Below are positions 1 through 25,824 of a stretch of 64,000 nt of DNA, piece by piece. Within the stretch, counting starts at the first letter, position 1; each line of letters begins with the position of its first letter. The position numbers and the translations under genes were made by a program. The notes under the pieces are model-generated. The model was not told the DNA's origin and searched no databases. It saw nothing but the letters and a program-made list of their open reading frames with translations. This DNA is from Cavenderia fasciculata (Eukaryota > Evosea > Eumycetozoa > Acytosteliales > Cavenderiaceae). Location: contig NW_004457642.1 in assembly GCF_000203815.1 (NCBI RefSeq), positions 744,001 to 808,000 of the forward strand, read 5' to 3'.

Positions 1-3000
1 AGACTTGGAGGAGAAGGAGATGGGCCATACTTTACAAGAGAATACATTTTATCTAAAATTGCATTGGTCGATATTCCATCAGGATCATATATTCGTATTG
101 TCCAAAAAAGTGGTGATAATACAACAACCACAATATCAAGTAAATTTATTATTCCTCCTCCTTTGGCTCCATCCTCCAACACTACTATTAGCATTACGAT
201 GGGTATTTTCCATTACCCCAGATCAAAATCACTTTTAATCAATTCAACCATAGACAAAGAATCGATGAACCTTCCCTATGGTCGTTACCTAGCTTCCTTT
301 TTTACAAATATTGGCTGGAATGGAAATAGATCATTTTCGTTTAACCTCAATGCCGACCAAGCCATCGTACTCGTGCCAAGTGATCCATCCTACCCAACTT
401 TGCTTTACGAGTATGAAGGAAAACCAATTTCCTTAAACTTATCGGAAACTAATTATACATATGAAATATTAGATCCTTGTAAGTATCATTCCCGAGAAAA
501 TATTTTAAATTATCATTTACTAACATGTGTTTTACTTTTTATCTTTTTTTTTTTTTTAGATTTATGGAATATCCCATTAGTTCCAATTGAAGGAATGACT
601 GTTGATATTATCGATAGATATATCAATCAGACAGTAGATTATTATCTAGACAATCAAAAACTGCAATGTACTAGATTGACAGATAACACTTTCGTTCGTT
701 GCGTTATTCCACCAAACTCCAATGAAGAAACACTCAAACCAATTTCTATTAAATGGAACGGTCAAGACCTTTATCCCTACCATTCCATTAGATATGGATT
801 GAACTCGATGATAAAAGGCCAATTATTCATCGATACAAATATGAATATGGAATATAATGAAAACGTAGATATCTTGATAAAAGATGATAACATTCAAGTT
901 CAATTGGTTGACCTTTCCACAGGAACCATTGTCGAAACGGTCGAATCTTCATTTGGACTCTATACATTCTCATCACGATTAAAAGCAGGTGACTATGCTG
1001 TAAACGTTCAAATTGGTGTAGAATCTACTTACTTTGCACCATTGGAAACTAAAAAAGTTCAAGTATCCGAATCAATGTCGGCAACGTATATCAACAACAT
1101 TGCACTTTTCCAAAAGAATGAAAAAGGATGTGTTGGTCATTTGATTACTTCTGACAATGAAAAATTGCAATTACAATATGGTACCTTTGCATTGGAGACC
1201 TTTGGATGGTCATTGTTCAATATCTCTACAAATAATCTACCAAACATGTGTGATTTAATTGTAAATAATGAAACTAAAATAATTTCAATTAAATATAGTA
1301 AGTTAAAAAAACAATAATTATAATTATAAAAATAATCTAATTAATATTCAATTATTTATAGAATCAAATATTTTAATTAATCTTTATTTGGATAAGAATA
1401 TGAATGGAATTTATGATGGAGAACTTGAAAATATAAATGAAATTGTTGTTGGTATTACTGTACAATCAATGTTGGGTAGCAAATTAATTTCTCAGTATGT
1501 TGAATCTTCGACAGGAATCATTGCACTTGATGTTCCTTCAAACTGTCAATTCAAGATAAATGATGAAAGATTTGTTACTCTTACTCAAAACCTTCAGGTC
1601 ATTCAAGATCCTAGTATTTGGTCTAACCAAAACCTATATACAGGAATGATTCCATCAAATGCCACCAAATTGCAATTAAATGGAGATGATAATCAACAAA
1701 GTGTCAAACTCCCACTTGGTCAATACTCATTAACCTTTTTTACAAATATTGGATGGTCATCCAACAAACTCTTGCCCCTTCAATTAGACCCTTCTTTAAA
1801 CCTTTCTCTTACCATCCAATATACAAACCAAGAACAACCAAACATCTATAACTCTACTGCTCAAACTGGGTTAGTCATAGACCTCAACACCACTTTTTCC
1901 TTTTTAGAAATATTTAATCCTAGTATGTTTTATTTCAAAATAATTTAATATATCTATTATTTATTAATCATTCATCCTATTTCTTTTTTAAAAAGATTTA
2001 TTGGTAGATGGTTTACAACCAGTTTTATCAAAGGGTAGAGGTGGTGTGATAACGTTTACAAATCAATACTATGGTACACCTAAATACTTTATAGGACAAT
2101 CAGAGCTGTCTATTAATCAAACAGATCAAGTGATTCATTTAACAATTCCTCCTCTGACTGACCAAGAAGAAGAAGTACTCACCAAGAATTTAACATTGAC
2201 TTGGAATGAGATTGGACTCTATACATCGTATTTGCTACATTATCAGCTTGATCCAACAACCAACGACACAACGACGACGACTACAATCCAAGGAATAATG
2301 TATTACGATTCAAATGGAAATAATATTTATGAAGAAACCGAGCCAACAGTCCAAAACCAAGTCATCACTATTGCCGACGAAAAAGAGGGTTCTATTCAAA
2401 CGATCTCTACTGACAACCAGGGAGCTTTTCTCTTTAATGTATTAGCCGGAACGTACATCCTATCAGTCTCACCACCTACCCTCCAGAGTTCCTCTTTTAT
2501 TGTTCCTCTCAACAATGTGGTTCTTGTCGTGGCCAACCAACAAAAGCTCAAACACAACATTTCAATCATGAGTGTTTCACCATTTGAATGTACAGGATCG
2601 ATTCAAGTTCAAGATGGACCACAAGTAACTGTACAATATGGTAGATTTGGATTTAACTATTTCGGATCAACAAATCAATTTTCATCAATTCAAGTATGTT
2701 ATATTATAATTCAAACAAAAAAAAACCAATTTATTTAATATTTAATTTTTTTTTTTTTTTTTATTAAAGTTACCAATACATTGTATGATTGTTAAAGATG
2801 AATTGAATAATGTTGATGTTATTTATAATATGTTTGAATTCACAAAGAATTCACCGGTTGCCAAATTTGGAGTCAGTCTTCCACTCAAGAGAGAGATCTT
2901 CAATGACCAAGATATTGTTTTATTCTCTATCTACCCATCAACAATACCTTTGGAGTGTACGTCAGACGTTGTATTGAAAGAATTCATTTGTGAAATTCCA

Positions 3001-4881
3001 GCAACCAACAAAAGCCAAGATTTAATTCAACTGTCCCTCAATGGTCACTTCTCACCATTCTTGTATACATTGAATTATATTGAATGTATGTATCATGATA
3101 TAAAGTACTACTTTATTTTTATTTTATTTTTAACCAACCCTTAATGTTCCTCTATAGTAACCTATAATATTCCAAAAGAAAGTGATCTATTCTTGACTGT
3201 TGGAAATAATGTAACATATGATCAACTATCTACTCGTTTGTCGATCAATTATACTGATAGTGATGGAGTAGCACACACAAATGCTCTCACATTTTCAACA
3301 ATCGATGGAATGAACAACTCGTACATTATCTTGACCCGTGATAATGTACCTGTAAACATGGTCGCTTTAAACGGACAAACAACATCGAGCAGCTATTTTG
3401 AATTTGAAGCAAATGGAAACCTATGTGTAAAATCCCAATTAAATGCCACCCTCGGATGCATGGGTACAGAATACTACAACATCCATTACATGCAATTGGT
3501 AAAAGAAGGAATCGTCTTCCAAAACGCCAAAGGAGAGGTTGTATCTAGTTGGTTGATCGAACCACTCACACCACCTGTAAAATCACAGTTTATGACCAAT
3601 CCTGGAAAGTACCTCGAAGCAAAGAACCCACAACTCAACTACCTCTTGGCATATGATACAAATGCAGAAACCAGAGACAGAATGTACTTGACCAACGGAG
3701 TAAACTATTTGACTCTTACCAACTCTGGAAACATTCTGATGACTAGAAATCTATCGGCATCTGCTCTATCAGATTCCTTGTTGCCGCCGTTCCTTATGTC
3801 ACCAGTAACTGCCGTTGTCCCTCAAGGCAATCCAAGGCTTGTGTTACTTGACAACTCTGACCTTTGTGTCTACCACGGTGCAACCGAACCACAAACAATT
3901 GCCTGGTGTCTGGGAACATCTGGACTTGGTGGTCGCGTTCTCATTGTCATGCCAGAACTCCTCACTAACCCATCGCTTCGTGGTATTGCCCTCCTGTCAG
4001 ATACTGGAAAGATTGTATGGAGCAAGTTTGATTATCAGGAGCGTCCTGTCTATCCACACATGTCGAGATTCCAATGCAACCTTCCTCTTGGTACCTATTT
4101 GGAAGTTGGACAATCGCTCCGTGCCGACCAATTCATAACCAACGGTCGTGACTATTTACTACTTTCAATAGATGGTAACTTGAAACTTTACTCGAGCATG
4201 AATCCACTCGACCGACAGTCCAACCCCACCTGGAGCACAAACCTCAATACATCGTCGCTCCAGGGTCCATTTACATTACAAGTCAGGACAAGCGGAATTT
4301 ATTTACACGATGCCTCCACCAACACTGACTATTGGTCTATCACCTCTCACATAACAACAAAATACCTCACCATGCAATTCTCAGATGCCACACAAGTAGG
4401 TTTCTTTTTGGTTAATGACAATGAAATAACAGGCGGAAAGATTCTCAATAGCAGTGCCGCCTCAAGTCAGCCAATCAACATCATGGGTTCCTCTGGATCA
4501 GTTGTTGTCCAATCCAATCAAATGGACCCTCGAGACGTTTCATTAAAGCTCCAATATTCAATGCCCAAATCGAGATGGGAATTTGTATTTTCAGGTGGAT
4601 CTATTGATATGATTGCAGATCAGACACATGAATATGCTTCATCCTCCTCCTCTACAAACTCTCCTGCAGACATATCGGTATCTCTCAAATTTGAAAACTC
4701 CCTTCTCTGTTTTACCTACTGCACCTCTGGAACCAACTGCGATAGCTGGTGCCCTAGTTCAATTCCAAACCAACAATATTTTACAATTGTACAAGGATTC
4801 CCATCACTTATACTCGTCAACACTAACTATGAAATTGTTTACTCTATTAATCCCTCAAACTTGGTTATTCTACTGCTTTAA
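1..4881 (+). CDS. Large secreted SdrD-B/bulb-lectin protein, 5' partial
   Basis: The 3' part of a large extracellular protein gene; its start lies before the window. Exons by frame and GT-AG phase are <1-478, 560-1297, 1362-1922, 1996-2693, 2770-3085 and 3158-4881. Three stretches (about 800-1100, 1385-1560 and 2283-2530) read as SdrD/Cna-B-like modules, each opening with an Asp/Asn-rich segment such as DTNMNMEYNENVD, DKNMNGIYDGE or DSNGNNIYEE, as in colossins. Between them recurs a module with the phrase FFTNIGW. The last exon resembles repeated bulb-type (mannose-binding, comitin-like) lectin domains, with phrases such as YLTLTNSGNILMTR and YLLLSIDGNLKLY. No C-terminal membrane segment is seen, so it is probably secreted or matrix-bound. 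Lectin activity is inferred from pattern only. The modules resemble those of the gene that follows. Confidence 0.7.
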
Positions 4882-5631: not shown

Positions 5632-8600
5632 ATGGATAAAACAGAGTTAGTTACTTATCTCTTTTTGTTATTCCTATTTTCCTTCTGTATAATAAATGCA
5701 GAAGATGCATCTTTAGATATAGAGATAATAGGTAATCAGCCTCTTTATTTCACAAAAAATGGAGGTCAGATCTTAAAGTTAAAAGCAAACAATCTTAAAG
5801 ATTGCAGTAAAGAAACACCTTATATCAAAATAAAGTTATTGGGTGCACGCAGTTCCCGTTTAGTAACTGCTAAGTTCAAATCCCTTGATGGATTAGAAGG
5901 TTCCTTTCAGATACCAGATATCCAAAGTTTTTCTTACGGTGCATCTGATGAAGGTCGATGGAAAGCAGAATTCAAACTTTTATGTCCTCGTAAACTAAAC
6001 GAAATAGACTATGTATTATCCTATTGGTATACTGGTAATTATTCTTTGGTTATAGTTAATAAAATGTCCACTAATTAATCATTTTTCATAGAACCATATA
6101 TCCAACATATCTTTCCAGGACAAGGATTCTTTTTTGGTGGTTACATGGTTACAATTACTGGAAGATATTTAAAAGTCGGCAATCCCAACATCCAAATCAG
6201 AATAGGTTCTCTTAAATGTGCCCTGAATCCCACCTATACTGACGGTATAATAACTTGTACTATCGAGGACAGAAGTAGGGACAAACTCTTTATCCAAAAC
6301 ATGGATGAATTTTGGAGTTCAGATGCAGATATCAAGGTTTCAGTAGAGATAAAATTTGATGGTATAAATCTCTCAAATCTGCCATTCACCTTTCAAAGTA
6401 TGTTCTAAATTATCGAATAGTGTTCATATTACTAACAACTGTACTCAGTTCCTACTGTTATCGATATGAATCCACAATCTCCACAGCTACTCAACTTTAA
6501 TGGACCAATTTTATTTGGTTTGAATGTTGCTCTAAAGGAATCTGATAATATCATTATTAAGATAGGCCAGAGCAAGTGTGATGTTAAATTCGAATCCACT
6601 CAGACAGCTTCATTTATTGAATGCACAAAATTCGAGCCACCAAGTGACAAAACAAATAGTGAAATTGAAATCACGTGCAACAATGTCCAAGTTAAATTTC
6701 ATCATTCAATTAGCACGAAAAAACAATTTAAATACCTGTGTATGTATATTTTCTAATAACCATGAGCCCTGTTTATTAACCTAGCCATTTGTAGATCCCA
6801 CTATTAATTCATTAGAAAAAAATTATGGGTTTCTCACCGGTGGATACGACATCTCAATTAAAATGTCCAATCTCTACCAAGTTAAGAAGGAAGAAATCCG
6901 AGTCATTTTTAACTACCTCATTGGTGACATAGAAGGTCAATTGGATTGTGATGTCACAAAATTCTTTTTCAAAAATGAAATTATCATTTGCACGACCAAA
7001 CCAAGTCCTAATACTGCCATTTTTAATTACGAAGTGACGGTGGATGTTATTTTTGACACAAGAGTTGCATTTCCTTCTAATAAAATAAGTTTTTCTTATT
7101 TCCGTAAGTTATGAAGAACTAAGAATAACTATCTTTTACTAATGTCAATCCTAAACAGAACATGCAATCAAAAAAGTCTCTCCACATAAAGGCTTTGGTC
7201 AAACAAGCAATCTCTTATACATTAATGCTTATCAGCTTCATCGTTGCAAGAATGAGCTTAGTGTCCAAGTTGGAAATACCAAGTGTGAAATTCAAGCCCA
7301 CCCCAGGATCGAAAAACTTGGTGATATTGATCTTTGGCTTTTAGAATGCCTTCTTCCCAAAATTACTTTGGATGCCGACCTCTACCAGAAACCTCTAAAA
7401 GTTGACATTTTCTGTGGCAGTCAACCCTCCAGAGTATCTGTTGATGGGGTTAATATGGCACTCGAATCCGAATCAATCAACTTCTTGGTCTACAGTAAGT
7501 TAACAAACAACACAAAATATTTCCATTTACTTACTTTTAATTTGAATAGAACCTTCTCTTGATGAAGTAAAGCTGTTGCCTGATTCGAGTGAGACAATTC
7601 ATTTAATTGGGACAAATTTAAAAGATATTAATCTGGTCAAAATAGGAGAAGTATCGTTTCATCCAAAACAAAAAACATATGGTCTTGTTGTCTTTCAAGT
7701 CGATAAAAAAACACAAGAATCAATGGTTGGAAATCTCCCAGTTAAAATTTATGCAACTCAATCTGAGATTCTGGTAGTAACAAAAGAACTATTCATTTCT
7801 TTTGATAATAGTAAGACCTTAACATAAATTATCTTCACTTTCATTATTTGAATATTAATATCATTTATTTACAATTATATATTAGAACCCTCGTACGATA
7901 TAACGTTATATCCTCTAGAAGGTATAATTATTGGTGGATTTGATATAAAAGTAACATTGAATAACAAATTACCACTAAATGATATAAAGGTTTTCATTGG
8001 TGATAAAGAGTGTATCATCAAAGATACAGAAGCAATAGGAGGCGTTTTCGATTGCAATGTCCAATCATCTGGACGTCCAACCACTTCATTGGAACCAGTT
8101 TCATTTAAAATTGGAACAACTTTGTACAAAACAAAATTGATGTTCCAATTCAACCTACCTCAAATTACAAGCTTCCAAATATCAGGAGAAACGTTAACAA
8201 ATCCAACAATTCCAACAAATAGTGACAAGATAGAGATAGATATTCATGGAACTTATCTTGAAAAAGCGACAGAAGTTAAAATAATGGGAGGACCCTCCCC
8301 AATTATTTGCTCTTCCCCACATTTTACAACCAAGGTCATCCACTGTACTCTTCCTCCACTTTCATCCCGATTCCACCTTACACTCTCAGTTTGGTTTTCA
8401 AAATTCCAAACAAATGAAATCGATTTGCCTATAAGTGGACCATACATCACAAGTATCATGCCAAATCATGGTCCAAAAAAAAAAAAAGTTATCGAGGTCA
8501 CCATTACAGGAGGAAAATTTGATCCAAAAACGGTAAAAGTTTTAATTGGAGAAGTCGAGTGCCCTATTATACGTGATCCATTGGATACACCAGGTAAAAT

Positions 8601-11600
8601 CTATTGCAAAAGAGTACCGGTCGAGAAAAGTGGAAAGGTGATTGTTCACTTGCATGATACGTACTCGAAAAGAGAATCAATAGATGGTGTCGAATTTACT
8701 CATGTTGGTAAGACAAAAGGAATATTAAAATTATAATAATTTATTTATAACCCATTTATTATTAGGACTAACCTGTTATGGACAACCAAAGGACTCAAAA
8801 ACTATGGGCCAAAATGATGATGTAGACTGGTGGTTAGTAAAAAAGATGAACAAAAAAGAAATAGGGTATGGATACTCTGACTCTCAACCAGATAGCCCTT
8901 TCAGGCTCATTGAAGACAATAAGTACAATGGTTTCAACGGACCTCTTAGTGAAACGTAAGTTAATCTCACAAGCGAGCTAGTTTGCACTCTATGGTGATA
9001 TTGATATTCTTTGACAATTTAGATTCAGACAATATAAAGATTATGGGTATATGTTTTTTAATGACCAACCATTCAAAAATGAAGAACTAGGCAATAAAAA
9101 AAAACCAGGCAAAAAAAAAGGAGATGATGAGGAGGAGATGGAAACTAAAATAAAAAATTATCATACTCCGTATGGCCACGTAAAAGGAATATTAATGTAT
9201 GAAATATGTAAAAATTCAATAATCTATCAATTATTAATATTAATTATTTAATTTCTAGGTGGGAGCCTGACCCTGAGGACGAAAATCTCATTCTTGGGGG
9301 TATTCATATTTCGCATTCTCAATCATATTTTCCGAATGCAATGTTTAAAAACATTAAACAAGCTGACCAAATGGTTGATTCATACGTTGATCCACCGGAA
9401 TCCATAGATGATCCAATAGATGAAACACTTGGATCATGGTTTGGAAAAGCTCCTTCTGGAATTGGGAATCACTTTTTTTGCTACAAGTTTACAAACATAG
9501 AACCGGTTGCAGATTACTTCCTTAAATCATATGCGTATGTCATGCCATATCCAGGTGGTAATCCAAAAGACTATGCACCCCGTATCAAAAAAGAAATGAA
9601 ATATCAAAATTTAGTAGATTTAGGTACTGTAGTTACATTAAGATCAAAATATCGATATGGAGAAACAAGAATGAAGAAAATCAGAGATGTATGTAAATGT
9701 TTAAATGATGATTTTATTTAACCAAAAATATTAATAGATTTTTTAAAGGATTGTTTAGCAAATGTACATAAATTTAATCTTGAAAATATTTGTTATTGGA
9801 TATACGTTCCTCCTACAGACAAACCAACTGGTTTCAAAGTTCAATATATTATAAAAGTTGATCAAGATATCAAAAAAAATCAAAAACAAAAACAACAATC
9901 AACACAATTGTCAATTCCAACAACCGAATACAAATATCGAATTGTAAAAATTGAGAAAAAGGGAAAAATGATTGCAAACGACGGATTGGATATTTATGAC
10001 ATCGCAGCCAACCACTTCAAATATAGTCTTTTTGCGCATACTTGGACGAACATGCAATCAAAATCATTTGTGCACACAACTGCCATCGCCAATGTAGAAA
10101 TTAGTTGTATGTCAAACAATAACAATTTCATATTACAAAAATTTCATTCTATTAATCGCTTGTTTTTTATAGACGTTAGAGGAGAAGAAAAGGTCCATTC
10201 CTCACTTACTAGATCAAATGATCATAGTAAAATGGCCTACCCATTGTTCCCTCAAGAACATACGAATAACAAAATTGTATGCGTTGGTGATTTAAATCGT
10301 CACGGTGGACAAGGTGCAAGAGGAGGAGGACTTGTGTGCTTTGAAAATATTGATTTGGCTTACCAGCTAAATAGACTAGTAGGTGGGTACTCTTCTGTCC
10401 GATCATATCAAACCATCAAAGATCAAACCCCAGTAGTTACTGAAAACCAAGATTATAGTTTTTTTGTCAATGGCTTTCATGTATTAAACAAGAATCCTCT
10501 TCGTTTAGAAATGGGAGTTTATCAGCAGTTTGTTGGTGGCCAACTACTTATGGACCCAAATGGGTATAGAATTTTTAATCCCGACCCAGAAACAGTGCCA
10601 CTCCCCAGGTACTCCCCAAAGGAAAAGGACCCTCCCAAGATCCCCCCACCTCCCAAGGGCCCCCCACTTCCAATCACTAGGAAGTGTCTAGTGGAAACTC
10701 CAACACATTCTGACACCAAAAATTCGAATTTTTTTCCTTTGTTGGACACTAATGGAAATGTAGTCGATCAAAACAAACCTGTTTATTTTGCCAGCAAATA
10801 TTTTTTAGGCTTACCCCACCATCGCACATTTGTTGCTTATTCAATCCCCATTAAACAAGCCATAATAATTAAATTTGAAGGTGAGGATATAAAAGATGAG
10901 GTACACTTTGAAATAATGGAACACCTGGAGAATTCTCTCATCTTGCCTAGATCACCAAGACAATTTTCCTTTGCTGAGCTAAAGCAAAAGAAATATATCT
11001 ATACGACTTCTATCCGGTAAATATCAACAAATAATTTAAATTTTGTTTTTTTTATTAACCAATTTATTATTTCATTAAATCAAGTACTTCCTTTGACTAT
11101 GTTGGGCAAGAAATTCATACAACTGGAGAACCTCTTTTCCCAAAACATCTGTGGGCGGTTAAATCTCAAGACACAATGTTCCTTTGTCACATTGGGTACG
11201 ATGACAGTTCAATAATTTGTCCATTGACTAATTGTGGCAAGAAGGAACAAGCAATCCGTTCACCAACCCCTTTTAAATCCCTTCCATCAAAATCTCCAAC
11301 ACGGGAATATTCAGACTCTGACCAGTTTGGGGAGCCAGTTACCAAACAATTTTTCATGGAAACCAACAACTCCTTTAAAACTCTTAGACTCGTCAAATAT
11401 TTTAAAGATTTAATCAAAAACCTCGTGGATATTAATCTAATCAAAGATAGATTCATTTTCATTATTCTTGGAACAAAATCAAAATATGACCCGATCGAGA
11501 AGCGTATTATTTTAAGCAATATAAAGACCCAACAGGATCCTCTTCCAATTTATTGCCAGGAGCAACTAAGTTATCTTCTGACACTAAATATCGCTGACAG

Positions 11601-14600
11601 AAAGAAATCAAAGCATCTGTTTGAAAACGATTGGGCAAACTCTGTGGCCATTGCCATCTCCCTCCATATTTCCAAGGTCAGTTATATTTATTCTAAAAAT
11701 AAATCAATTCTAACTTTTTTTTTTTTTCCCACTATAGAAATTTAATAAAGATAATGGTCCTCCTCTGCTCACTCTTCCAACATGCTTCAATCAAATCGAT
11801 ATAGTATCTAAAGAAAAAGAAATTCTTGCAGTGTTAGGTTTAAAGGACCAAAACAAGCAATTTCCCTACGAGAAACTATTTTCTATACTATTATCGACCG
11901 ATTCGGGAGAGATTGGATCTCTGGGACAATTCTACAATGAAAAACTCAAAGAATTTAAATCAGAAGGCAATGACAAGTGGTTGGAAGAAATGGAAGTGCT
12001 ACCCCATAAAACACTAGAGGATAAAACTCCACCTGTTTTAGCAAAATCGCAAAGAATCCCAATATCTACCCAAGATCAAACCAGCCCTATTGACCAACTC
12101 ATAGGACGTGTATCCCAACTTGCATTCGATATGGATCAAGTACTGGAACTCTCAGACACTGACATGGACTCTTTATCAAACTCACTCGATAAATGGATTA
12201 ATATTGGTCCAACCAATCTAGGCATCAAAGTTTTACTTTTGGACCCTCAAAAACAAACCAATAATCAAGCGATTAAATTTATCGACGAGATCCCTGAAAT
12301 CACAGAACCAAGGGTGGAATTATGCTATCAAGAGCTGGACGACTCTGAAGTCAGAATCGAAGTTTGCACACCAAAATCAATCATTCTAATGACAGATATC
12401 TTGGAAAGCTTCAAATTCTCCCCTTCAACTTTATTCAAAAAGATGGGGGACTTGGAATTTCATTTTGTTTCAAAGCCGGCCAATTACGATGGTTATATAC
12501 AAGACAAAGATGTTGATGGTTTGATAATAGCCTCTATCAACTCAAAACTTTGTGATCTTTCAATGACCTCTTTGGATGACTTTGGTGGTGACATGCAAAC
12601 ATTGTGTCCTCAATCAGGCCCAATCATTGTGTCTGTCTCTGCTGAACATGGCCCAACAGGCGGAGGAGTAGAGTTGGAATTGAGAGGAACAAGATTCACT
12701 GAAGATTTGCAGGTTGTGGTAGGATACGAAAAGTGTACAACCACCACCTTCCACTCTCAATCGTCTATCAGTTGTATAGTGCCTCCAAATGTTGGATCAA
12801 AACATTTAATTCAATTCCAAGATGTAGAAATTGTTCAAAAATCACAATTTTACTACTCCTATGACAACCCAGTCATATCCTCGGTGCAAGTGGCTACCAC
12901 CATTTCAGACCGAGTCACTGAAATTATTATCCAAGGCAATAATTTTGGAAGACTTGGAACAAACGATTTGGAGGTATATGTAGATTCTACAGAATGTGCA
13001 ACTATTGAACATTTAGATACCTTGGTAAAATGTCATATACAAAGTGGTTTTGGACAACTCAATTTGGTCAACATTACCATAAACCGTCTTACATCAACCA
13101 CATTCCACCTCAACACCATCTCCAACTCTCAATTCTCCTTCCCAGTGCCACCAACAATAGAAAGCATCTCCCAATCATCAGGTCGATATGGAGACATAAT
13201 AACGATTTATGGCAACTTTTATAATGACGAATCCCAAAACTTCACAGTCTATTTTGGTGACACTCCGGTAATAGGAGAAAGGGATGATGGATCACACATA
13301 CAAGCAAGAGTTCCAAGAGGAAATACCCATTCATCAAAGGACGTTCGTGTCACTTGGGAAGGAATTTATTCAAGTGAAACAGTACCATTTAAATATGATG
13401 AAGCTTATATTTTCTCATTTTCTTTGGAAACATTCAATACTATTGGAGGTATGATTCAAATCTTTGGAAATGGTTGGGGTATGTCAGACAAGGAAGTTGC
13501 AATTGATTTTGTCAAGATGGATGAAACCTTGCTCAAATGCAGACCACTCAGCACATTGATCGAATGTGTTGTTCCTCGTGGTATAGGTACATACAAAGAG
13601 ATCAAGGCACAGATTGGAGGTGAACCTGTATTTTCGTTCTTTTCACCTTTGATTTCCTACAAACATCCAATCATTCTTGGTATGGAGAATCTGCCACCCG
13701 GCGGGAAGATCAAAATCAAAGGAGAAAACTTTGTTCCAAAAGGTGTGCAATATGATCCTCAAACAACCAACATTCGAATATATGACTCCAACAATGACCC
13801 AATCAACTGTACAACATCCTCCTTTGTCGACCAAAACACCATTTTTTGTGAACACAAACTACCTGCATTTTATTCCTTTGTCGAAAGTGGTGTCGTATCA
13901 ATTGGCGGTCAATCATCAGAATTGTATACCCATTCATATGACTGTAATGGAACCATATCGAATGGACAACAGACCTTGGGTATTCGATATGGGTATATCG
14001 ATCTCGACAACTACGACTGGTGTACAACCAGTCAATGCATGTCAAAGTATCGAATTACCCTTCCAGACACGTGTTCGTATTCGGTTGTTGGATCATCCAT
14101 CAAAGTACAATACAAATACTCTATCACCTTGGATACTTTTGTCGACGTTGATCTGGATTTAATCAAAACCCCACTCGACCTAGAGACTGAAGACTTGGTG
14201 GTTACAATAACAAGTCAGGATTTACATTTCCTTGGAAAAACCGTTACAAGGAGAATTAGAAACGAGCCAATCGATTGCCCACCATTCTCCATGGTCCGCA
14301 TCAAAAGCTTGGACCTAGACTTGGTTTCTGTATTTAACGATTTTACCGTTTCTTTTGCCCCCAATCAAACCACAAAGTCAATATCCATTCCATTGTATCA
14401 ACTCAGTGTCTATGGAACAATGAAAGCCACCATTTTCAACAAAACAGGACAGTCTGGAGGCACAATCACCCTCCCTGTTGGTAGATTTAACATGCCGTAC
14501 GGTTCAAACAATACCGCCAGCTCCATACACATAAGTGACCTCAGATTATCTGTCGCTTTGATAGATCAATCAAATAATCCAACTGTTGTAAGTGTCTCTG

Positions 14601-16652
14601 GAGATTTAAAATCAAATCTAGTGCTAAAGATCGTCGATGTCTATCCAAATAATCCATTTCCTTCATTGGTCCCACCATATAATACATCAATCACCATCCA
14701 CAATTTATATGGAGGACCAGTTCCCAAGGTTTTCAATTCAACAACCCAACTTGAATGCAATTACAACAACCAAACCAAACAACTGACGTTCACCACTCCA
14801 AAAATAACCTCCACGCCACCAGAAAGCAAGGGAGCTTTCAGATTTACCTGGGGTGAAAAAAATCTCTATGCAACATATCCCTTCACCTACCAATCCATCA
14901 CCATAAAGGGAAAAGCATTTATCAATGGTGAAATGATAGATAATCTAGAGGATATCGAAATTGGACTCAAAGGTACAACTCTCAAAACAAAAACAAATAG
15001 CAGTGGAAGCTATTTGTTGTCTATCCCATTTGTACCTCAACCACCCTTGTATATTTCAGTGACAGAGTTGCCAGGAAAATCGATTCCAAAGAAAATTGAT
15101 CATTTGATTTCTCTAGTAGAGGGACAACTCGAAGCCACTCTAAATATTGAAATACAAAGACTCAAGTGTACTTTTAATAATATTAATTTTTTGGAATTAT
15201 CCCAAACAACCTTTACAGCAAAAGATACCAGAGGCGTAAGTTAAAACAACAAATATAATTACAAAAAAAAAAAAAATTTAATTATTCATATTAACATTTT
15301 TTGTCCTCTAATAGAATTCTTATTTCTGGAATATTTGTGGACCTTCATCCATTTGCACCAAAAATCTTGGTGGCACTCTAGGCATTGGAGCTTGTCAAAA
15401 TTCCACCCAATTTTATAGAACTGGAGACTTGGTAGATTCAACTTGGGCTCCAAATTGTATGTATATTTTTACTAGTATAGTCCTCTTTAAATTATCACAA
15501 CTAATTGAATTTTCAATCTAATCAAACAAGCCGAAGGACAAGGAGTTCAATTATCTTACAAAACAAAAGTAGGAGGAAAAGAAAACTGTTTGAATGGAGG
15601 TAGAAACTCCACCATCCACATCACCTGTGGAAAATCAAACTCAGCACAAACAGTCAAAGAAAAAGACATGTGCAATTATCATATGTATATGACCTCTCCT
15701 CTTGTGTGTCCAGTTCCTGAATGCCAAATCGATATCCTGTACTCAGGACAAAGGTTAAATCTCTCACCATATCACCAAAAAATATGGAGCAAAAATGTTA
15801 CCCTCTCTGGGACACCTGTAAGTAAAGTATACTGTAGTGGATCAAGTAAACTTTATATTAATTTTTTTTTTTAATACATAATTAATAGTACATGTTCTAT
15901 TGGACCCTGTGTGGGGCTAACAATCAATGCCCTAGCGGCTCAACAGCGTGCCAACTCACGACAACAAATCAATATATAGGTATCGCAAATACCCAAGCAA
16001 CATGGAAATATGTTGGCAACGATTTAGTAGGGCGATATTCTGAACAAAGTACAACAGATCCTTGTAAAACTGGTCCCAGAATAACTAAAATTTATTTAAC
16101 ATGTGGTCCTATTGATTCTATTATCTCAGTTACCGAACCCTCGACATGCCTATATGAAATCAGAATGACATCGATACGTGCTTGCGATCAAACGAGTAAT
16201 TGTCAATTCCGAGGCTATGACTATTCTTCATTGGCATCGTAAGTAATTCAACTTATCACTATTATTTTTATTTAATTATTAACTTTTAATCATTTATGAA
16301 TTCAATTGATAGAACTACACTTTATCCTGATCGAGTGACATGGAAGAATTTCTCGGTAAGTATTTGTGGTGAAGCTCCTTGTAGGGATCAGGCTGCTGTA
16401 TGCGAGTATATTCAATATCAAGATCGAGAGAGATGGGTTTCCGCTGGTTCACTTCGCTATGGCATTTGGTCAACGAATAGTAATGGTGTTAATCAAATAA
16501 CCTATTCATCTGGCTCTAACGAAGGTTGTATCAAACAAAGAAGTACCACCATCCAGATTGAATGTGGCGAAAAAGCTATCATCAAAACGATCACAGAGCG
16601 TTCCAGCTGCCAATATGAAATTGTCGTTACTTCCCCAGTTGGATGTTTCTAG
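5632..16652 (+). CDS. Giant secreted TIG-DNase II-TIG-MRH fusion protein
   Basis: Eighteen exons join with consistent phase: 5632-6034, 6092-6397, 6449-6739, 6795-7103, 7159-7494, 7550-7810, 7886-8707, 8766-8955, 9023-9196, 9259-9689, 9738-10106, 10173-11016, 11085-11676, 11738-15235, 15315-15456, 15531-15817, 15889-16238 and 16313-16652. They total 9,945 nt, or 3,314 residues. The first ATG is followed by a hydrophobic signal peptide ending near INAED. Residues ~130-909 are TIG/IPT-like repeats (IxxIxPxxG, xxIxIG...C). Residues ~910-1365 are a DNase II domain: LTCYG, VDWW, GHVKGIL (H1025, K1027), SHSQSYFP, NDHSK (H1315, K1317) and CVGDLNRHGGQGARGGG. A Pro-rich region and a large unrecognised segment follow. 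Further TIG repeats run from about 12.63 kb and colossin-like modules to 15.2 kb. Three Cys-rich repeats with MRH features close the protein. Acid endonuclease activity in phagosomes or outside the cell is inferred from the family. Confidence 0.8.
8766..10400 (+). other. DNase II-like catalytic domain within the giant gene
   Basis: This domain begins exactly at an exon start, right after the TIG block. Signature pieces occur in family order: N-terminal TCYG and VDWW, first HxK (His at 9177-9179, in GHVKG), SHS before aromatic/Pro, second HxK (His at 10223-10225, in NDHSK), then the Gly-rich GDLNRHGGQGARGGG. In animal DNase II the two HxK motifs form a phospholipase-D-like active site for acid DNA cleavage. 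The domain is ~455 residues against ~340 in animal enzymes. The extra length includes a Lys/Glu-rich insert at about 9090-9160 and loops near 9840-9970. Assignment of the family is strong; activity is inferred. Confidence 0.85.
15315..16652 (+). other. Three tandem MRH-like (M6P-receptor homology) repeats
   Basis: Three Cys-rich repeats end the giant protein. Each has an opening such as FWNICG, FYWTLCG or FSVSICG, a middle CQ (CE in the third), a basic residue before a hydrophobic strand ending in C (GGRNSTIHITC, GPRITKIYLTC, KQRSTTIQIEC), and a close in E...C-x-Y (CNY, CLY, CQY). MRH domains bind phosphomannose or N-glycans with Gln, Arg, Glu and Tyr. Arg, Glu and Tyr candidates occur in all three repeats and Gln in the first two. 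Family assignment is by pattern and moderately sure; ligand binding is inference. Confidence 0.6.
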
Positions 16653-17597
16653 ATAATAATGTACAATACTTTTTTTTTAACAACAAGTGATGACTAGATT
16701 TAGTTTACATCAATAAAATAGGATTTTTCTTTATTTTTGGGAACTTGGTACACGTAATACAACAGATGGTGATTGTTTTGGTGATTTATTATATATAATA
16801 TTTATTATTAGGTGTTCTGAGCTATATAGACGGTCATAGATTCTGTGCTATATCGATATCGATGGTCATAGATTCTATATCGATGGTCACAGATTCTGAG
16901 CTATATAGACGGTCATAGGTTCAGAGCTGTAAACGGTCATAGATTCTGCTGTAGACGTTCATAGGTTCTAAGCTATAGACGGTCATAGGTTCATTGAATT
17001 TTTTATCAATTCTTGTTCGAGTCCAAACATTTGAGCATAACGAACCACAGGGCTATCACCATGTTTGTGGCAAGTAAGATGTTACAATGTTCATATTCAA
17101 ACTAAATAGATTTAGCTATTGCTTTTAATAGATCGTTTTTCTAGAAATAATCTATTAATATAAAATTACTTGTGCAGGTCGTAACAATATAATATACCTG
17201 TTGTTTTTCATTGTTGTAGTACTGATTAAAAAATAGGATACAAATAATAAATAGTTTCAATGTAACGCACTCTAGGAACAAAAAGATAATCTTCTTGTAA
17301 ACACGAGGCTCACTCCTTTGAGATTACCACTTTGATACTGTATATTATGATAATAAATATTAATCAGCTAAACAATTGATGATTATCTTCTTTTTTCTCT
17401 ACTCTGCTAGTATTCTGCTATGCAGTTTGTGAGGATGGCATACCCTCCATTCTTGTAGCATTCGAAAAAAATAGTTTTTTTTAAGGTCCGAGAGGAGTGA
17501 GTATTTTGGGTGTGTACATGTGATTCCTTTTAAAATTAAAATTATTTTAACCTCCTTTTATTTTTGTAACATTATTAGTATTATATTTATATAAAAG
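16653..17597. other. Intergenic region with repeat block
   Basis: This stretch holds a degenerate tandem repeat (16811-16993) and AT-rich filler. The final ~80 bases before the ATG at 17598 are T-rich, as is usual upstream of dictyostelid genes. I see no gene here. Confidence 0.5.
16811..16993. repeat. Degenerate ~24-26 bp tandem repeat
   Basis: About seven imperfect copies share the core gacggtcatagattctg, alternating with agctatata or tatcgat. Unit length varies with small deletions. No transcript or gene overlaps it. Confidence 0.8.
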
Positions 17598-20262
17598 ATG
17601 AATTTAGAGAAGTGGGTGCAAGTACATCCAGACTATCCTCCCTATCTGGGGTATTTAGTAAGTTTTAATTACAATGTTTCGTCAAAGGATCTTCTATTTA
17701 AAATTCTTTTATTTATTTTTAGAGCATTTGTAAAAAGCAAGAGACACCTTTAAAAGTAGCAGAGAATAGTAGAGATGAAAATATCATTAAATCAGTGATA
17801 ACAAACAAACAATTATTCAAAACCATCATTGCCGTTGGTAGAACTATTGTCATCAAATGTTACAACCACCACTACAGCTTTCCTCCTGTAGGATGGATCA
17901 TTAAAAATCTAAATCTATTCGAGTGCCACAACTACATCTCTCTGACTAGTGCTGAGTGGATAGTTAGAAATCAGTACTATGGTCTACTTGAATACAAACT
18001 AAAGAGAAATGACCATTTACACTTTTCACTCGCTTCAATCCAAATGATGTGTAATCATTTGGGTGGTGACATGAAACTCTTTAATCTCATCTATGAGAAA
18101 AAGAGATCAATGTTCTTTTCAGACACTCTTTTAGAGTGTGCTGCAACTTCTGGGAATACTCAAGTATTCAAGATATTGCTTGACCAGACATACCCAAAAA
18201 GATTGAATCTTTTCAATCAACCGAGTATATTCAAGTATTCTAAGTTTGGTGTTACTATTACCAAGAGACACGCTCCCGTTCAAAAGCGTTTGTGTATCTC
18301 ATTAAACAAAGCAATCAATGGATGTCACATTGGTATCTTTGACTTCCTAGTTGTTAACGGTCTTGTCAACGTCGAAACCAACACACCTCCATCCAAGATA
18401 TTGACAAACGACTCACGAAGAATCTCGTCATTCTTGGAGTATTTGTACAACTTTATCGAAACCAAACTGCTCCCCACAACTCCAAACGAAACTATAGTTT
18501 CCATTGCAAAGAAATTTGTGTCGCCTCTTTATTTTCCACTCCTCAAATCAAACAACCTATCATTGATCAAGAAATATTACGGCAATGACAACAATATCTT
18601 TAATAAAGGTGAATTTAGCCGTTGGATTGGTACTCTCTATTATCTGAATCTTGAAGAAGTAGACGGTTCAGGAGTAATAGAGACTATTGAATGGATACTC
18701 TGTCAAGATCCTCTCAACAAGGAGATGATGGATAGTGCTCATGCTCTCAGTAGATCTCTTACAAGTCTAAACAAACAAGAGAAAAGGTATATTATTTTTG
18801 CCTATTACTTTAACCAATTCTCAAAGCATTGGGAGATTGTTAAAAATTATCATTCTCCATTGGTTGACATGTACACCAAATACTATTCCCCTATTGTTCA
18901 AGAGAGCATGTCTCTAGAGGATGACATGGAATTTATCAAGTCCTTGGGAGAAGAGACTTTGATATTTATATCATTTCTGATAAAGTTGGCCCATTTGACG
19001 GTGAAAAGTCTCCATTTTAGAGATCTGTCTTTTCTACGTTGCATCTGGGCTTCTTTACTTGAAGATGAATTTGAACTTTCCAAGTACGTTTCCCGTTATA
19101 TGAAGCCCTCAAAATCGCTAGAAATATTAATGTTTTTCCAACAAAAAAGTCAAGAGTTGGGTCATCCCCTATACCTTGAATTTTTTCGAGCCATCAGAAA
19201 AAAAGACCATGAAATGATAGAGTACCTCTTTCAAATCGATGGACATCAAAAGATAATTCAGGAACTCGATAATAATGGAGAATTGTTCTTGACCTACACC
19301 TCTTATTTCAACCAAAAAGTGGCAAAGATTCTATTGGACAATCCAGCGACCCCAACCATACCAAACGACCAGGGGTGGAGAACAACATTGGCAGTCTTGA
19401 TGCAATTGTTTTCTACAATACCTATATAAACCCTGGTTTGAAAAATGTAAAGCTGGATATGCCCGAGGGAGATGTACTACCCATCTTAGAGTACTTTTTC
19501 AAGCATTCACAATCACCCATCCATGACAATATAGAATTTATCATGACAGTGGCGTGTCGTGATGGATATCAATCTATTTTTCAACACTTGTTTGAAAACT
19601 ATTCAGATCAATCCTCGGACAAGATTCCTCGAGGACCTGATTGTCAATTTCGTTATACCCCATTTTTAGACTTGGCATTCGACAGTGGTCACATGCCTAC
19701 CGTACACTATCTCTTGACAGAAAAGAACCAGTATTTTGGACCACAATCATGGTTCGATGCTGGTGGAATGTGTGACAAATCAATCATTGAATTTGTTCTT
19801 GACCACACACACCCCTCTAAATTACAAAAGGCCTTTTCCTGTATCTTTAAAGTGGGAGTGGAGAATGGAGCTTATGATCTTGTGAAACATCTTTATAATC
19901 AAAAACCAATTGATAAGTCCTTGTTGGAAAGAATTACTCGTATTGATCAAGCAAATCTATTAAAGTATGTCATTGACAATACCAAGTTTTGTGGTGATGG
20001 ACAAGATAATATAGAGACATCTACAAATTCATCATTGCATGTCTTTCAAACCGATTTGACAAGGTCAGAGCTTTTAGATATAGCCATTCAATCATCCATC
20101 TCAAAGTATACAAATGGATTGGATTGTTTTAAATTACTCATTGACAGCTATGGTTGCACTCTGGACAATCAATCAATACAAGAATTGGCAGAGGATTCCA
20201 ATTGGGGATTTCCATTCATTCTCCATCTCGAAGAAATTAAAAATATGAAAAAACTAAACTAG
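17598..20262 (+). pseudogene. Ankyrin-type family protein with one frame break
   Basis: Exon 1 is 17598-17657 (MNLEKWVQVHPDYPPYLGYL) and exon 2 starts at 17723. The protein resembles dictyostelid ankyrin-repeat families, with helix-pair phrases such as LLECAATSGNTQVFKILLDQ, AINGCHIGIFDFLV and AFDSGHMPTVHYLL. The frame open from exon 2 ends at 19429, and the homologous sequence continues in another frame from about 19375 to 20262. The minus-strand paralogue at 20480-22948 reads straight through the same place (LNAIIFYNTYINPGL), so a one-base indel or a sequencing error near 19370-19390 is likely. Intact length would be about 865 residues. Role unknown; ankyrin proteins mostly bind other proteins. 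Confidence 0.7.
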
Positions 20263-20479: not shown

Positions 20480-22948
20480 CTAAAGTGTTGGAGGAATGGA
20501 AAGATCAAAGTTATCCATTCCTTCTCTAATAGATGTATTGACAAGTTTGCTTAAAACCTCTGGCCTTTTTAATTTTGTTTTAAATAATAATGACGATGAT
20601 GAATTTGAATCTTTCTCTTGTCCAACATTAAAATTGGTATTGTCAATAATAAATTTTAATAAACTTGCTTGATCAGTGTAGGTATAGTCTTCTAAAGCAT
20701 AAGGAATTGATATTTGGTGATTATGAATATGTGCAACACAATGGTACACTCCACCTAGAATTGCTTCTTTGATGATGGAGGATTTTTTCTCTTTTGTATG
20801 GTCAAGTACGAAATCTAAAATGTCATTGTCACAGATGACGCCAGCAATTTTACAGGGTCTTTGTCCAAAATATTGGTTCTTTTCTCTGACGAGATAGTTT
20901 ACTATTGCCATGTGACCACGATAAAATGCCTCATCTAAATATGAACAGGATACACCATCCAATTTTAATGAATAGAAATGATTTTCAAAAAAGTATTGAA
21001 CTATTGACAAGTGACCACCAGCATATCCACAGGCTTTATCGATGACATGTTTCATATTTTCATCCAATGGTGATTGAGAATTGGTGAAAAAGTACTGTAT
21101 GATTGGTAAATCTTCTTCATTTGTATAATCAAATTTCATATCTTTGAGGCCAGGGTTTATATAGGTGTTGTAGAAAATAATTGCATTGAGGCTTGAAAAA
21201 GAATACCTCTCCCTATTTTGCCCTGTTGGAAGAGTTATTTTGATGTTTTCATATAGAAGCTTTGCAACATCCTCGTTAAAGTATTCAGTGTAGGCCAATA
21301 TCAAGACACATGAACCATTCTTGATTAGTTCCTTATTAGCATCTGCAATGATTTCTGTTCTATTGACTTGAATGAGATACTCGATCATTTCGAGGTCTTG
21401 TCTTTTAATTGCCATAGTAAAGTCTTGAAAACTGTGGTGGAATGATCTGTCTCGTTGTTGACAGAACTTCATTATTTTGAGGCTTTTGAATGGTATTCTC
21501 TGACCAAAGTAATGTGTACTGTCGTCTCTAGATATCATGACCCATGCACAACGATAAAGAGCTACATCTTTTTGGAGAAAAAAATCCACTTCATTATGTA
21601 TACTCTTTGCAAAGAAAAGTATAAATGAATTGATTTCCTCTCCCAACGATTGGATAAAACTAGAATCATCCTCTATCCACATTTTCTCTTGAACTGTTTG
21701 TTCATAGTATTTGGTGTACATGTCAAGTAATGGGAATTGATCATTTCTAAGATCACTTTTAAAGGGATGCCACCATCCCCTTGACAATTTGTTAAAGTAA
21801 AAAGCAAAACAAATAAATCTTTTCTCTTTTTTGTTTAAACTTGTAAGGGATGAACTGAGAGCATGAGCATTATCAATAATCTCTTGACTTTGAGGTATCC
21901 TGTTTTCCCATAGAATCCACTCAATTATCTCTAATATGCCATCATCATCCATAATATTATCCTCTAGTGTTAGATATCTCAGTGTATCCATCCAATCCAA
22001 AAAGACTTTTTCATAATACAAGATCATATTGTTGTCTTTGAAATTGTCAGAATATTTCTTGATCAATGATAGGTTGTTTGATTTGAGGAGTGGAAAAAGG
22101 AGAGGCGAAACAAATTTCATTGCAATGCAAACTATAGTTTTGTTTGGAATTATGGGGAGCAGTTTGGTTTCGATAAAGTTGTACAAATACTCCAAGAATG
22201 AAGAGATTCTTTTCGAGTCGTTTATCAATATCTTTGATTGAAGTGAGAAAAGTTTCTCAATCTCGACAATACCTCTACTACCAACTATCAAGTCAAAGAT
22301 ACCAATGTGACATCCATTGATTGCTTTGTTTAATGAATGGCATGGATGGTGCTCTCTCGGGTATCGAGAAAATTGATCTAGACCCTCGATAGAATAAACC
22401 AACAAGCTTGGTTGATGATAGAGATCCAATTGTTTTGGAACAGTCTGGTCAAGCAATATCTTGAATACTTTTGTATTCCCAGAAGTTGCAGCACACTCTA
22501 AAAGAGTGTCTGAAAAGAACAATGATCTCTTTTTCTCATAAATGAGATTAAAGAGTTTCATGTCATTGATATTATTGCATATCTTTCTAATTGAATCGAG
22601 TGAAAAGTGTAAATGGTCATTTCTCTTTAGTTTGCATTCAAGTAGACCATAGTACTGATTTTTAATGATCCATTCAACACTAGTCAAAGAAGTGTAGTTG
22701 TAACATTCAAACACATTCCGAGTCCCTCTACCAGCTTTTATAATATTTTTAAACAATAGTTTGTTTGTTATAACTGCTTTAATTACACTTTCATCTACTA
22801 CACATTCATCTACGTAAACCTTGCTATTATTGCAGTCACTCTAAAAAATAAAGTAGTCTAATAAATAAAAGAATCCTTTTCAAAGCTAGTGTACAATATT
22901 ACATACCGTAAATCCTCTTCTTGCCCAATAAACTCTCATAAATTCCAT
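20480..22948 (-). CDS. Ankyrin-type family protein, intact paralogue
   Basis: A two-exon gene: exon 1 is 22948-22907 (MEFMRVYWARRGFT) and exon 2 is 22840-20480, joined in phase across a 66 bp intron with a GTATGT donor. It encodes 800 residues with ankyrin-like helix pairs (LLECAATSGNTKVFKILLDQ, GHLSIVQYFFENHF, GHMAIVNYLV). It is a close relative of the gene ending at 20262, and the two converge tail to tail with ~217 bp between them. There is no signal peptide or membrane segment, so a cytosolic or nuclear protein is likely. Function not recognised. Confidence 0.8.
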
Positions 22949-23288: not shown

Positions 23289-25057
23289 TTATTTGGTAAT
23301 GACATCCCAAGTCTTGAGAGCACCATCATTACCGGCAGAGATGAATTGCTTGTCATTGATCCAAGTAACTTCATTGACACCACCTGGATGAGAGTTTCTG
23401 AAAGAGATAGGGGCACCATTCTTGACATCGACACTCCAAATATAAATGTAAGAGTCGAGACCACCAGATACGATAAACTTGCCATCGGCAGACCAAGAGA
23501 GAGAGTTTACACGAGCAGTGTGATTGACCCAGCTCGAGTTTTTGGCAGTCTTGCCGTCCCAAACGATGATTTCACGGTTGGCATCGGCGGTGGCCAACAA
23601 CTTTCCGCATGGAGAATAGACGACTTCGGTGACGATACCACGGTGTTGTTCGAGGGTGTGTGATTTGGCGAGCGAGTCACCAGAGATGGTGTAGACATAG
23701 ACCTTGTTGTCCTTGCCACCGACAGCGACTTCAGAGCCGTTGGTCGAGATGGAAGTTGGCTCGTATGGGACGGCAGTGCCGACAGCCTTGCCATTCTTGA
23801 TGACATAGACACTCTTCATCGAGGCAGCGACAACAACATCGCCGGCAAAGGCGATACCTTGGCCTGGCGAGTCAATGGCGATGGATGGGCCGTATTGACG
23901 AGTGGAGATCTTGGAGACACGAACAGTGTCATCCATGGCACAGGTGGCAATGTCGTCACCACGGATCTTGATTTGAGCAATTTGGTTGGTATGTCCTTGA
24001 CCTTGGAATGGGGTGGCTTGGCCAGTGGTGAGGTCCCATTGGAAGAGAACACCGTCGTTGGACGATGAGAAGAGTGTCTTGGTGGCTGGATCGTATGCAA
24101 TGGCGCCGATCAACTTGTTGTGGCCGCGGATGACACGGGTAGTGGTGCCTTCAGCTTGGTTGAGATAGTTGATCTCACCGGCGAGATTGACCGAGATGAG
24201 GGTGTCGTTGTTGACCCAGAGACAACCGAGTTGTTGGTCGTTGGTGGTGTCGCCAAAGGTAAAGGTGGTGAGACAGGCACCCGAGGTGGTATCCCAGATC
24301 TTGCAGGTCTTGTCGGCCGAAGCAGTGACAATACGGTTGTTGTCTGGTGCCCACGACACGCACATGATCGAACCGTTGTGACCACCTTGCAACTCGACCA
24401 ACTTTTCGCCAGTCTTGCCGTCAAAGACGACACCACGCTTGTCCGACGACACAGTGACACACTTGTTTCCGTCGGGTGAGAAACGCACACAATTGACAAA
24501 ACGTGTGTGATCAGTGGCCAAAGCTTGCTTAAACTTGAATGGTGGGCCTTCAAACCAGTTGGCTGTGAAATCTTCCGAGCCAGTGGCGGCACGGAATGGA
24601 CGCGACGACTTGACATCGACGGTTTGGATGAGCTTGGAGTGACCGGTGATCTCTCCGACCGAGGCACCAGAGTCCCAGAGGATGGCGGCACCATAACGTT
24701 CCTTTCCGTCACCGACGGCAATGATACGTTGGCTGTCTGATGTCCAGGCAATATCGAGGATGGCACCATTCAAAACCTTTAATGTAATCTTGAGTGGATG
24801 CTCCTTGGAAATGGTGTCCCAAATACGGAGGTTACCTTGCACGTCACCAGAGGCAATGTAGTTGCCCGATGGAGCATATTTGGCTACAGTTGTGGCTGCT
24901 GGATGTTCATAGTAGATATCGGCAACAGCAGCATCCTTGATGTTACGGATAATGACTGCACTACCACATGTATATAACAAATTGGTTCCCTTTGGATCAG
25001 TACTTACAAATACTGGTTTACCACGTGTTACCGATGGTGTTGGTGCAATAATATTTT
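23289..25057 (-). CDS. aip1: Actin-interacting protein 1 (WD40), first exon not found
   Basis: About 589 residues of WD-repeat protein match Aip1: the start ENIIAPTPS, the phrase [11 protein letters not shown], then serial repeats such as [27 protein letters not shown] and [13 protein letters not shown], ending [17 protein letters not shown]. Aip1 folds as two seven-bladed propellers and helps cofilin take actin filaments apart in the cell cortex. An acceptor AG at 25059-25058 opens this exon with two bases of a split codon, so a short first coding exon (a handful of residues) lies upstream; I could not place it. Base composition is richer in GC than the surroundings, as expected for a highly expressed gene. 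Confidence 0.9.
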
Positions 25058-25824
25058 CTAAATTAATAATAAATAATAAATAAATGAAATTAATATAATT
25101 ATAAATAGATATAAACCAACAATCAACTATCATATCATATCATATCATCATCATTTTGGTTCATTATGTTATGTTTCATCATCCGATTTGTTGTGTTTGT
25201 TATTTGATATTGTTGTAGTCAGAGCAGAGTCGGTGATCTTCACTATTTTTTTTTTTTTTTTTTCTATCTGTCGATGTATCTTTTTTGTGACAAGTGATAT
25301 ACACCTTATTACTGTGATCACATCTTCTTTATCTTTGTCTTTGTTGCAATCTATGGTATGACGATGATAATGTATCCGAATATGACGATAATGTATTTTT
25401 GATGATGGTAGAGAGAGATTTTCTGACTGTTTGTTGTAATGATGAACCTACTTAATGTAATTGACATTGATGAATTATCTTTCTTCTTCTTTTTTAATTG
25501 ATATATTTATTATTATTATTATTATACAGGTGTTATTATTATTATATAAGTACAAATTGGTTCAAACAAAACTAAACTAAAAAAAAAAGATTTTTTATCA
25601 TTGATTATTTTAACGCAAGAGTGAACTGATGCAAGAAAAATTGTTGGGGATGAAAAAAAAATTAAAAAGGTCAAATATTGGGTTTGGGTGTGGGAATGAT
25701 TCCTCATTATTTATTTGAAATTCGATAGTATTCCTTTCCATTGTAGTCAATCATCCCATCTACACATACCAAGGTAGATTATTACAATTGTCTATTAAAG
25801 GATACCAATATAGTAGATTAGTAT

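Follow-up and report, generated by a model that had tools for sequence, protein, structure and literature searches.

DNase II is usually a stand-alone secretory or lysosomal protein of about 340 residues, and one stretch of the genome of the social amoeba Cavenderia fasciculata raises the question of what such an enzyme does when it is built into a far larger protein. The stretch, here called the window, comprises 64,000 nucleotides of contig NW_004457642.1 (assembly GCF_000203815.1, positions 744,001 to 808,000 of the forward strand; C17:744001-808000 in our numbering), and the gene in question, the window gene, occupies its positions 5632-16652. The DNase II domain of its 3310-residue product retains both catalytic HxK motifs, lies between two blocks of TIG repeats and is followed by three MRH domains. 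We find that the window gene belongs to a set of at least 17 giant paralogs, which fall into a class A, mostly with the catalytic motifs, and a class B without them, and that its upstream neighbor belongs to this second class; both points lay outside the window and were missed by an earlier, sequence-only reading of the locus. Compared with what is known, a single fusion thus becomes a family of giants, mostly arranged as equipped and disarmed pairs, although DNase II and TIG adhesins are themselves known kinds of protein. The explanation that we favor, and to which we give an even chance, is that the window protein is a secreted acid nuclease docked to surfaces or glycans, with a co-inherited and catalytically dead partner.

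The gene model is exactly as the sequence-only reading had described it. All 17 introns of the spliced model are GT-AG and 51-79 nt long, the 18 exons agree in phase, the coding total is divisible by three, and a single frame of 3310 codons ends in its sole stop. Pfam profiles place TIG, DNase_II, TIG and PRKCSH_1 (MRH type) in this order, all above cut-off, which bears out the mid-protein position given earlier to DNase II, with TIG on both sides and MRH at the end. The features of the gene are as follows.

5632-16652, plus strand: window gene, class A; 18 exons, 3310 residues, some exon joins common to sister genes.
5632-5700, plus strand: probable signal peptide, the first 23 residues, from translation and hydropathy.
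6092-8707, plus strand: N-terminal TIG block, exons 2-7; Pfam TIG 103.9 bits in 3 stretches.
8766-10395, plus strand: DNase II domain, exons 8-12 (first part of 12); Pfam DNase_II 92.1 bits.
9177-9185, plus strand: first catalytic HxK motif (HVK), counterpart of HTK in PDB 5i3e.
9689-9748, plus strand: intron 10, the ambiguous one, favored by a common phase-0 position.
10223-10231, plus strand: second catalytic HxK motif (HSK within NDHSK), counterpart of DHAK in PDB 5i3e.
10396-12610, plus strand: middle region, in which Pfam gives no match at E up to 1; toward its C-terminus it resembles other class A genes.
12620-13950, plus strand: C-terminal TIG block, exon 14; Pfam TIG 93.2 bits in 4 stretches, the best from exon residue 295.
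13951-15150, plus strand: post-TIG region, with similar regions in the class A genes of C9, C14 and C5.
15158-15712, plus strand: MRH copy 1, which starts in exon 14 and runs across introns 15236-15314 and 15457-15530.
15713-16191, plus strand: MRH copy 2, PRKCSH_1.
16192-16652, plus strand: MRH copy 3 and stop, with the expected Q replaced.

The DNase_II match far exceeds its cut-off of 23 bits and is nearly full-length, covering profile positions 6-323 of 326. Like other members of PF03265 (human DNase II, plancitoxin-1, PDB 5i3e and 5unb), the domain has both HxK motifs and the GDxNR-GGG block; unlike a stand-alone enzyme, it carries insertions and is embedded in 3310 residues together with TIG and MRH. 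The correspondence of its motifs to those of 5i3e was made through a stand-alone DNase II of this genome (87.5 bits), and a direct phmmer search of the PDB with the window domain reached 5i3e only at E=0.24, ranked under a Src match at 0.031. A custom TIG profile, in whose construction the TIGs of the window gene itself were included, finds five TIGs before and four after the DNase II domain at E<1e-3. The post-TIG region gave a carboxypeptidase-regulatory-like match below threshold (12.8 versus 32.2 bits). Single-sequence structure predictions were of low confidence, with a mean predicted local distance difference test score (pLDDT) of 31.0 for part of the middle region and 38.2 for the exon-14 TIG region.

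At the other end of the protein, PRKCSH_1 gives 78.6 bits in three stretches, and each MRH copy passes the cut-off of 23 bits by itself (30.6, 28.7 and 29.2). All three copies have R, E at +19 and Y at +25, and copies 1 and 2 also have Q; these four residues we take to be the sugar contacts. The nearest kinds, the MRH lectins glucosidase II beta and OS-9, share this profile and these residues; they are proteins of endoplasmic reticulum quality control, whereas here three copies, the third without Q, end a presumed secreted nuclease. The earlier idea of docking onto glycans fits the conserved residues. Its companion, that the protein sorts itself to lysosomes, fared less well: the MRH type is glucosidase-II-beta-like, such domains are known in only 2/9 class A genes, and beyond guesswork nothing supports it. 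Secretion is suggested by hydropathy over the full protein, whose N-terminal start (1.99) is the only strongly hydrophobic stretch and probably represents a secretion-type signal peptide. No membrane helix was found by hydropathy, the best 19-residue stretch after residue 40 reaching 1.15, nor was one found in the model of the upstream partner.

Whether these domains belong to one gene has to be settled before their combination can be given a meaning. In the window gene itself an intron separates TIG from DNase II, and sister genes are informative here. In 6/7 sister class A genes (C2, C5, C7, C9 twice and C13, not C14; the test omits C13b) both domains share a single uninterrupted exon, which joins the last TIG before DNase II to the start of DNase II. 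The same occurs in 1/7 class B genes, that of C14, where a 1315-codon exon holds the end of DNase II and four TIGs. In addition, some DNase II introns lie, as judged by eye, at the same place and phase across several sister models. Because of these single-exon fusions and common intron positions, merged neighbors are unlikely, and for the join of TIG and DNase II we reject such an artefact.

The join to the MRH domains is less certain. When the last 36 residues of exon 14 were compared with four other MRH starts, their score exceeded those of all 2000 shuffles and of 954 other protein stretches, the start of copy 2 contributing little (14 of 119 points); moreover, the class A gene of C5 likewise has MRH domains following a TIG block. 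A gene finder whose training set was seven sister genes, with the window gene excluded, disagrees, as it stops the gene at 15521 and assigns the last MRH exons to a separate model of 249 residues; this finder also misses the start of the gene, including the first exon with the signal peptide, and shifts some exon edges. The Pfam match of MRH copy 1 does not reach into exon 14 either (29.6 bits with, 30.6 bits without that exon). A separate neighboring gene, joined to the window gene by a wrong model at the MRH end or at the TIG block, would account for these two observations; set against the exon-14 score, the order seen in C5 and the single-exon fusions of the sisters, it seems to us very improbable, and at the MRH join the artefact is nearly rejected. 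The evidence argues strongly that the window gene is one gene, as had been proposed. One detail of the model is ambiguous, since intron 10 has two in-frame splice solutions. We favor 9689-9748 because its phase-0 join before Cys was also recognized, by eye, in six models of sister genes (C9 twice, C14, C13, C13b and C5; it was not seen in those of C2 or C7), and on this ground the alternative, 9693-9737, was set aside.

The family itself emerged from a profile search of the whole 31.0-Mb genome (21 contigs). It returned at least 33 DNase_II matches, at least 25 of them at loci with TIG matches nearby and the other eight stand-alone or weak; these counts are lower bounds, as the search ignored introns and missed the C5 class A gene, and 150 of 449 candidates on the TIG list were scored. 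Seventeen giant genes were modelled, nine of class A and eight of class B, which amount to eight A and B pairs plus one extra A. A third pair at C13 (431-437 kb) is known from three of the 25 matches only. Class A genes, the window gene among them, have the layout TIG, DNase II, TIG, tail; class B genes, including the upstream neighbor, begin with DNase II, followed by TIG and a tail. The sister models come from a simple custom finder trained on the window gene, which carries some genes too far at the end (in C5 as far as exons that match pseudouridine-synthase and Voldacs) and places noise exons at the start of some; five of the models (C9 A2, C9 B, C13 A and both C13b genes) are cut by the end of the retrieved stretch.

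Seven of the eight pairs are oriented head to head, and the window pair is in tandem. Between the first solid coding exons of the divergent pairs the distance is roughly 0.7-1.6 kb in six cases, a crude measure for which C2 and C13b were corrected by eye to about 1.3 and 0.8 kb by dropping noise exons; in C14 it is 0.3 kb, or up to about 2.3 kb when only exons with recognized domains are counted. The partner of the window gene enters the window with its 3' part.

1-4881, plus strand: upstream class B partner, 3' part; model C17:734209-748881, 4524 residues, with an SdrD_B-like module.

Its DNase II domain lies outside the window and lacks both HxK motifs. A B-lectin at the end of this gene was considered and rejected (17.3 bits versus a cut-off of 32.4), and by phmmer this end matches no other giant model. 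Tails differ across the family: an MRH tail is known in the class A genes of the window and of C5, and SdrD_B exceeds its cut-off in three class B genes (C17, C9 and C14) and is sub-threshold in both C13 genes; the other tails are unassigned. The C14 class B tail (L024:499-6741) holds seven SdrD_B-like stretches and carboxypeptidase-regulatory-like domains in one frame of 2081 codons. In giant size and in these SdrD_B modules the family recalls the colossins, the Cna_B giants of Dictyostelium, yet ColA is described in passages of PMC3188802 as a slug protein of Cna_B repeats, and the main text of that paper contains no occurrence of DNase or nuclease.

What separates the two classes most sharply is the active site. 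In an alignment of 21 DNase II domains (nine A, eight B and four stand-alone), both HxK motifs are present in 8/9 class A genes, in 4/4 stand-alone genes tested and in 0/8 class B genes; of the second motif, the B gene of C2 retains His and has lost Lys. According to passages of PMC4148230 and PMC9208542, the pair of motifs builds a single active site within a pseudodimer; a protein that has lost both should therefore be unable to cut, and class B seems catalytically dead. An alignment of 19 domains indicates that class B nevertheless keeps the conserved blocks around the lost residues.

These observations suggest how the favored pairing of a docked nuclease with a dead partner could work. The window protein, a presumably secreted giant whose intact DNase II is flanked by TIG rods and whose end consists of three MRH domains, predicted to bind mannose-type glycans, would most likely be attached through rods and MRH domains to the cell surface, the matrix or prey. 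Its nuclease would cut DNA at the docking site or in the phagosome, in the metal-independent acid mode of DNase II, and possible targets are prey DNA, extracellular DNA and the DNA of other cells. Class B, with the DNase II fold and without the catalytic residues, would most likely work with A, either by binding A or by binding DNA without cutting it; dead paralogs that regulate an active partner are reported from other enzyme families.

One alternative is a feeding enzyme, that is, a phagosomal or lysosomal DNase for bacterial or prey DNA, in which TIG, MRH and tails serve only as modules for stability, sorting or prey binding. Self-sorting to lysosomes through MRH is retained only within this alternative. 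Passages of PMC9208542 describe the human DNase2 enzymes as lysosomal and active under acid conditions, and excerpts of PMC8535579 list 'Deoxyribonuclease II activity' among the enriched Gene Ontology terms shared by lineage-specific expansions in five dictyostelids. Genes for stand-alone DNase II with both motifs are also present in this genome (4/4 tested), a point that cuts both ways, as such enzymes would be enough for digestion. The alternative offers no reason for a catalytically dead relative as partner, and we think it rather unlikely.

Phylogeny adds the history of the pairs. All class B genes fall into a single clade (ultrafast bootstrap 100), and class A genes split from B and the stand-alone enzymes with 88. 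C14 and C13 come together in both classes (support 97 in A, 100 in B), and C17 joins C9, with support 100 in B and weakly in A (66). Distances among A genes correlate with those among their B partners (r=0.81, 8 loci), a value reached by 10 of 40320 permutations; without C13b, r is 0.62 (15 of 5040 permutations). As read from these sequences, joint duplication of A and B pairs explains the mirrored trees. For recent duplicates, the ratio of nonsynonymous to synonymous substitution rates (dN/dS) is 0.41 between C9 A1 and A2 (3282 codons), 0.66 between the C13 A genes (2583 codons) and 0.37 between the C13 B genes (677 codons), whose dead DNase II part gives 0.43. As all are below 1, the long frames, dead domain included, have been kept by selection, though loosely.

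Side-by-side pairs with mirrored trees invite comparison with the TgrB1/TgrC1 recognition system of Dictyostelium discoideum, which also has TIG repeats and adjacent, mostly divergent pairs with many duplicates; to our knowledge, Tgr proteins carry no nuclease domain. If the A and B pairs formed a system of this type, the divergent arrangement of 7/8 pairs and the strong divergence of DNase II between the C9 duplicates would find an explanation, and the candidate functional tgrBC loci are characterized, in passages of PMC12324515, as paired diverging genes with one promoter in a duplication-rich region. The same passages describe Tgr proteins as transmembrane, whereas by hydropathy neither the window protein nor the model of its partner has a membrane helix, and the window pair is in tandem; because of these two differences we do not file the window protein as a Tgr protein. 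In addition, dN/dS stays below 1 in all three comparisons, which come from one genome, and the C13 duplicates do not display the fast DNase II divergence of C9. We judge a tgr-type system to be a rather unlikely candidate. Bolder, and in our view less probable still, is a multi-locus lock-and-key system of giant secreted proteins in which each locus would mount its own armed nuclease A and disarmed copy B on TIG rods, the two being inherited together and matched to one another; B would recognize, cap or present its cognate A, and the DNA of cells or prey without a matching B would be cut. Such a system, if it exists, would stand beside tgr-type recognition as its nuclease-armed counterpart.

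The conservation of the dead domain bears on one further possibility, namely that the genes act on extracellular DNA, where nets or biofilm DNA would be cut or shaped and B would serve as a DNA-binding scaffold. The blocks conserved around the lost residues of B and the dN/dS of its dead domain, from one duplicate pair, would fit, and D. discoideum sentinel cells are described in passages of PMC4773522 as casting DNA nets that are digested by added DNase I. That work concerns another species, however, and nothing in our analysis ties the genes to nets; we consider this reading distinctly unlikely.

Several observations weigh against our favored account of a docked nuclease with a dead partner, besides the gene-finder and Pfam boundaries at the MRH join. 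As the window pair is in tandem, its two genes cannot be served by a simple shared promoter. Class A is not always intact, since neither HxK motif survives (QGK and YSK) in the C5 gene, one of the only two that carry MRH domains. Mirrored A and B trees can arise from joint duplication alone, without physical contact between the proteins, and the permutations shuffle locus labels only. Finally, DNase II is the most diverged part of the C9 duplicates, with 72% identity and a synonymous divergence (dS) of 0.40, versus 85-97% and dS 0.12-0.24 in the six other parts; further dips in identity lie outside DNase II. Such fast divergence is odd for a plain housekeeping enzyme and could reflect diversification or segment exchange. 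The C13 A duplicates do not share it: identity is 67% in DNase II as well as in the N-terminal TIGs and 66% in the tail. Between the C13 B duplicates identity is 92% across the dead DNase II and 83% in the region that follows.

Parts of this picture can be traced in print. One group of TIG-domain families has 9, 43, 35 and 50 members in four dictyostelid species according to passages of PMC4334915, and excerpts of PMC4931340 likewise report expansion of such families in dictyostelids. The DNase II expansion is already traceable through the Gene Ontology term of PMC8535579, in whose consulted sections fusion and pairs are not mentioned. A large expansion is also described in Trichinella spiralis, with 125 predicted DNase II-like genes, one of them predicted to have the catalytic motif; the sections of PMC4148230 at hand mention neither a fusion with TIG or MRH nor fixed gene pairs. 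The sequence-only reading knew of no described protein with this architecture, and none was found in the literature searched, where no paper joined 'TIG domain' with 'deoxyribonuclease'; subscription papers, supplements and protein databases were not covered. An alignment of the TIG and DNase II exons gave 43 and 76 pattern matches in bacterial/archaeal and viral collections, respectively, none of which was confirmed as a relative.

Related domains occur elsewhere in the genome. Three tandem genes of middle size at C12 (1289-1297 kb; L027 and L028), modelled at 717-788 codons, carry DNase II with both HxK motifs and gave no TIG match with the custom profile. An open reading frame (ORF) at C3 (L031:3523-3963) has an MRH-type match (PRKCSH_1 30.3 bits, CIMR 23.5 bits), and its contig has no DNase_II match in the genome search, which ignored introns.

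Within the window, short tandem repeats with units of 21 and 24 bases ('GGTCATAGGTTCAGAGCTATA..') lie at 16856-16993, directly downstream of the window gene. Neighboring ORFs on both strands, at 17723-20262 and 20480-22840, give weak to clear ankyrin-repeat matches, and a WD40 beta-propeller ORF follows on the minus strand (23289-25139), the 3' part of which is GC-rich (53% at 23.5-24 kb), unusual for the first 24 kb of the window. One ORF at 35375-36772 matches both CoA-ligase and citrate synthase and is presumably ATP-citrate lyase. Long tandem repeats with units of 9 to 81 bases are found at 39119-39419 and 49836-50640, the latter inside an open frame (48609-51131). No tRNA and no Rfam match were detected in the 64 kb.

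Taken at its present strength, the locus presents a recycling enzyme built into an adhesion protein of more than 3000 residues, multiplied, and kept as equipped and disarmed pairs. If the proteins are active and secreted, they would link DNA cleavage in social amoebae to the recognition of cell surfaces or glycans. Feeding, DNA nets and self-recognition would then also become open to direct testing, for which the dead partner would provide an experimental handle.

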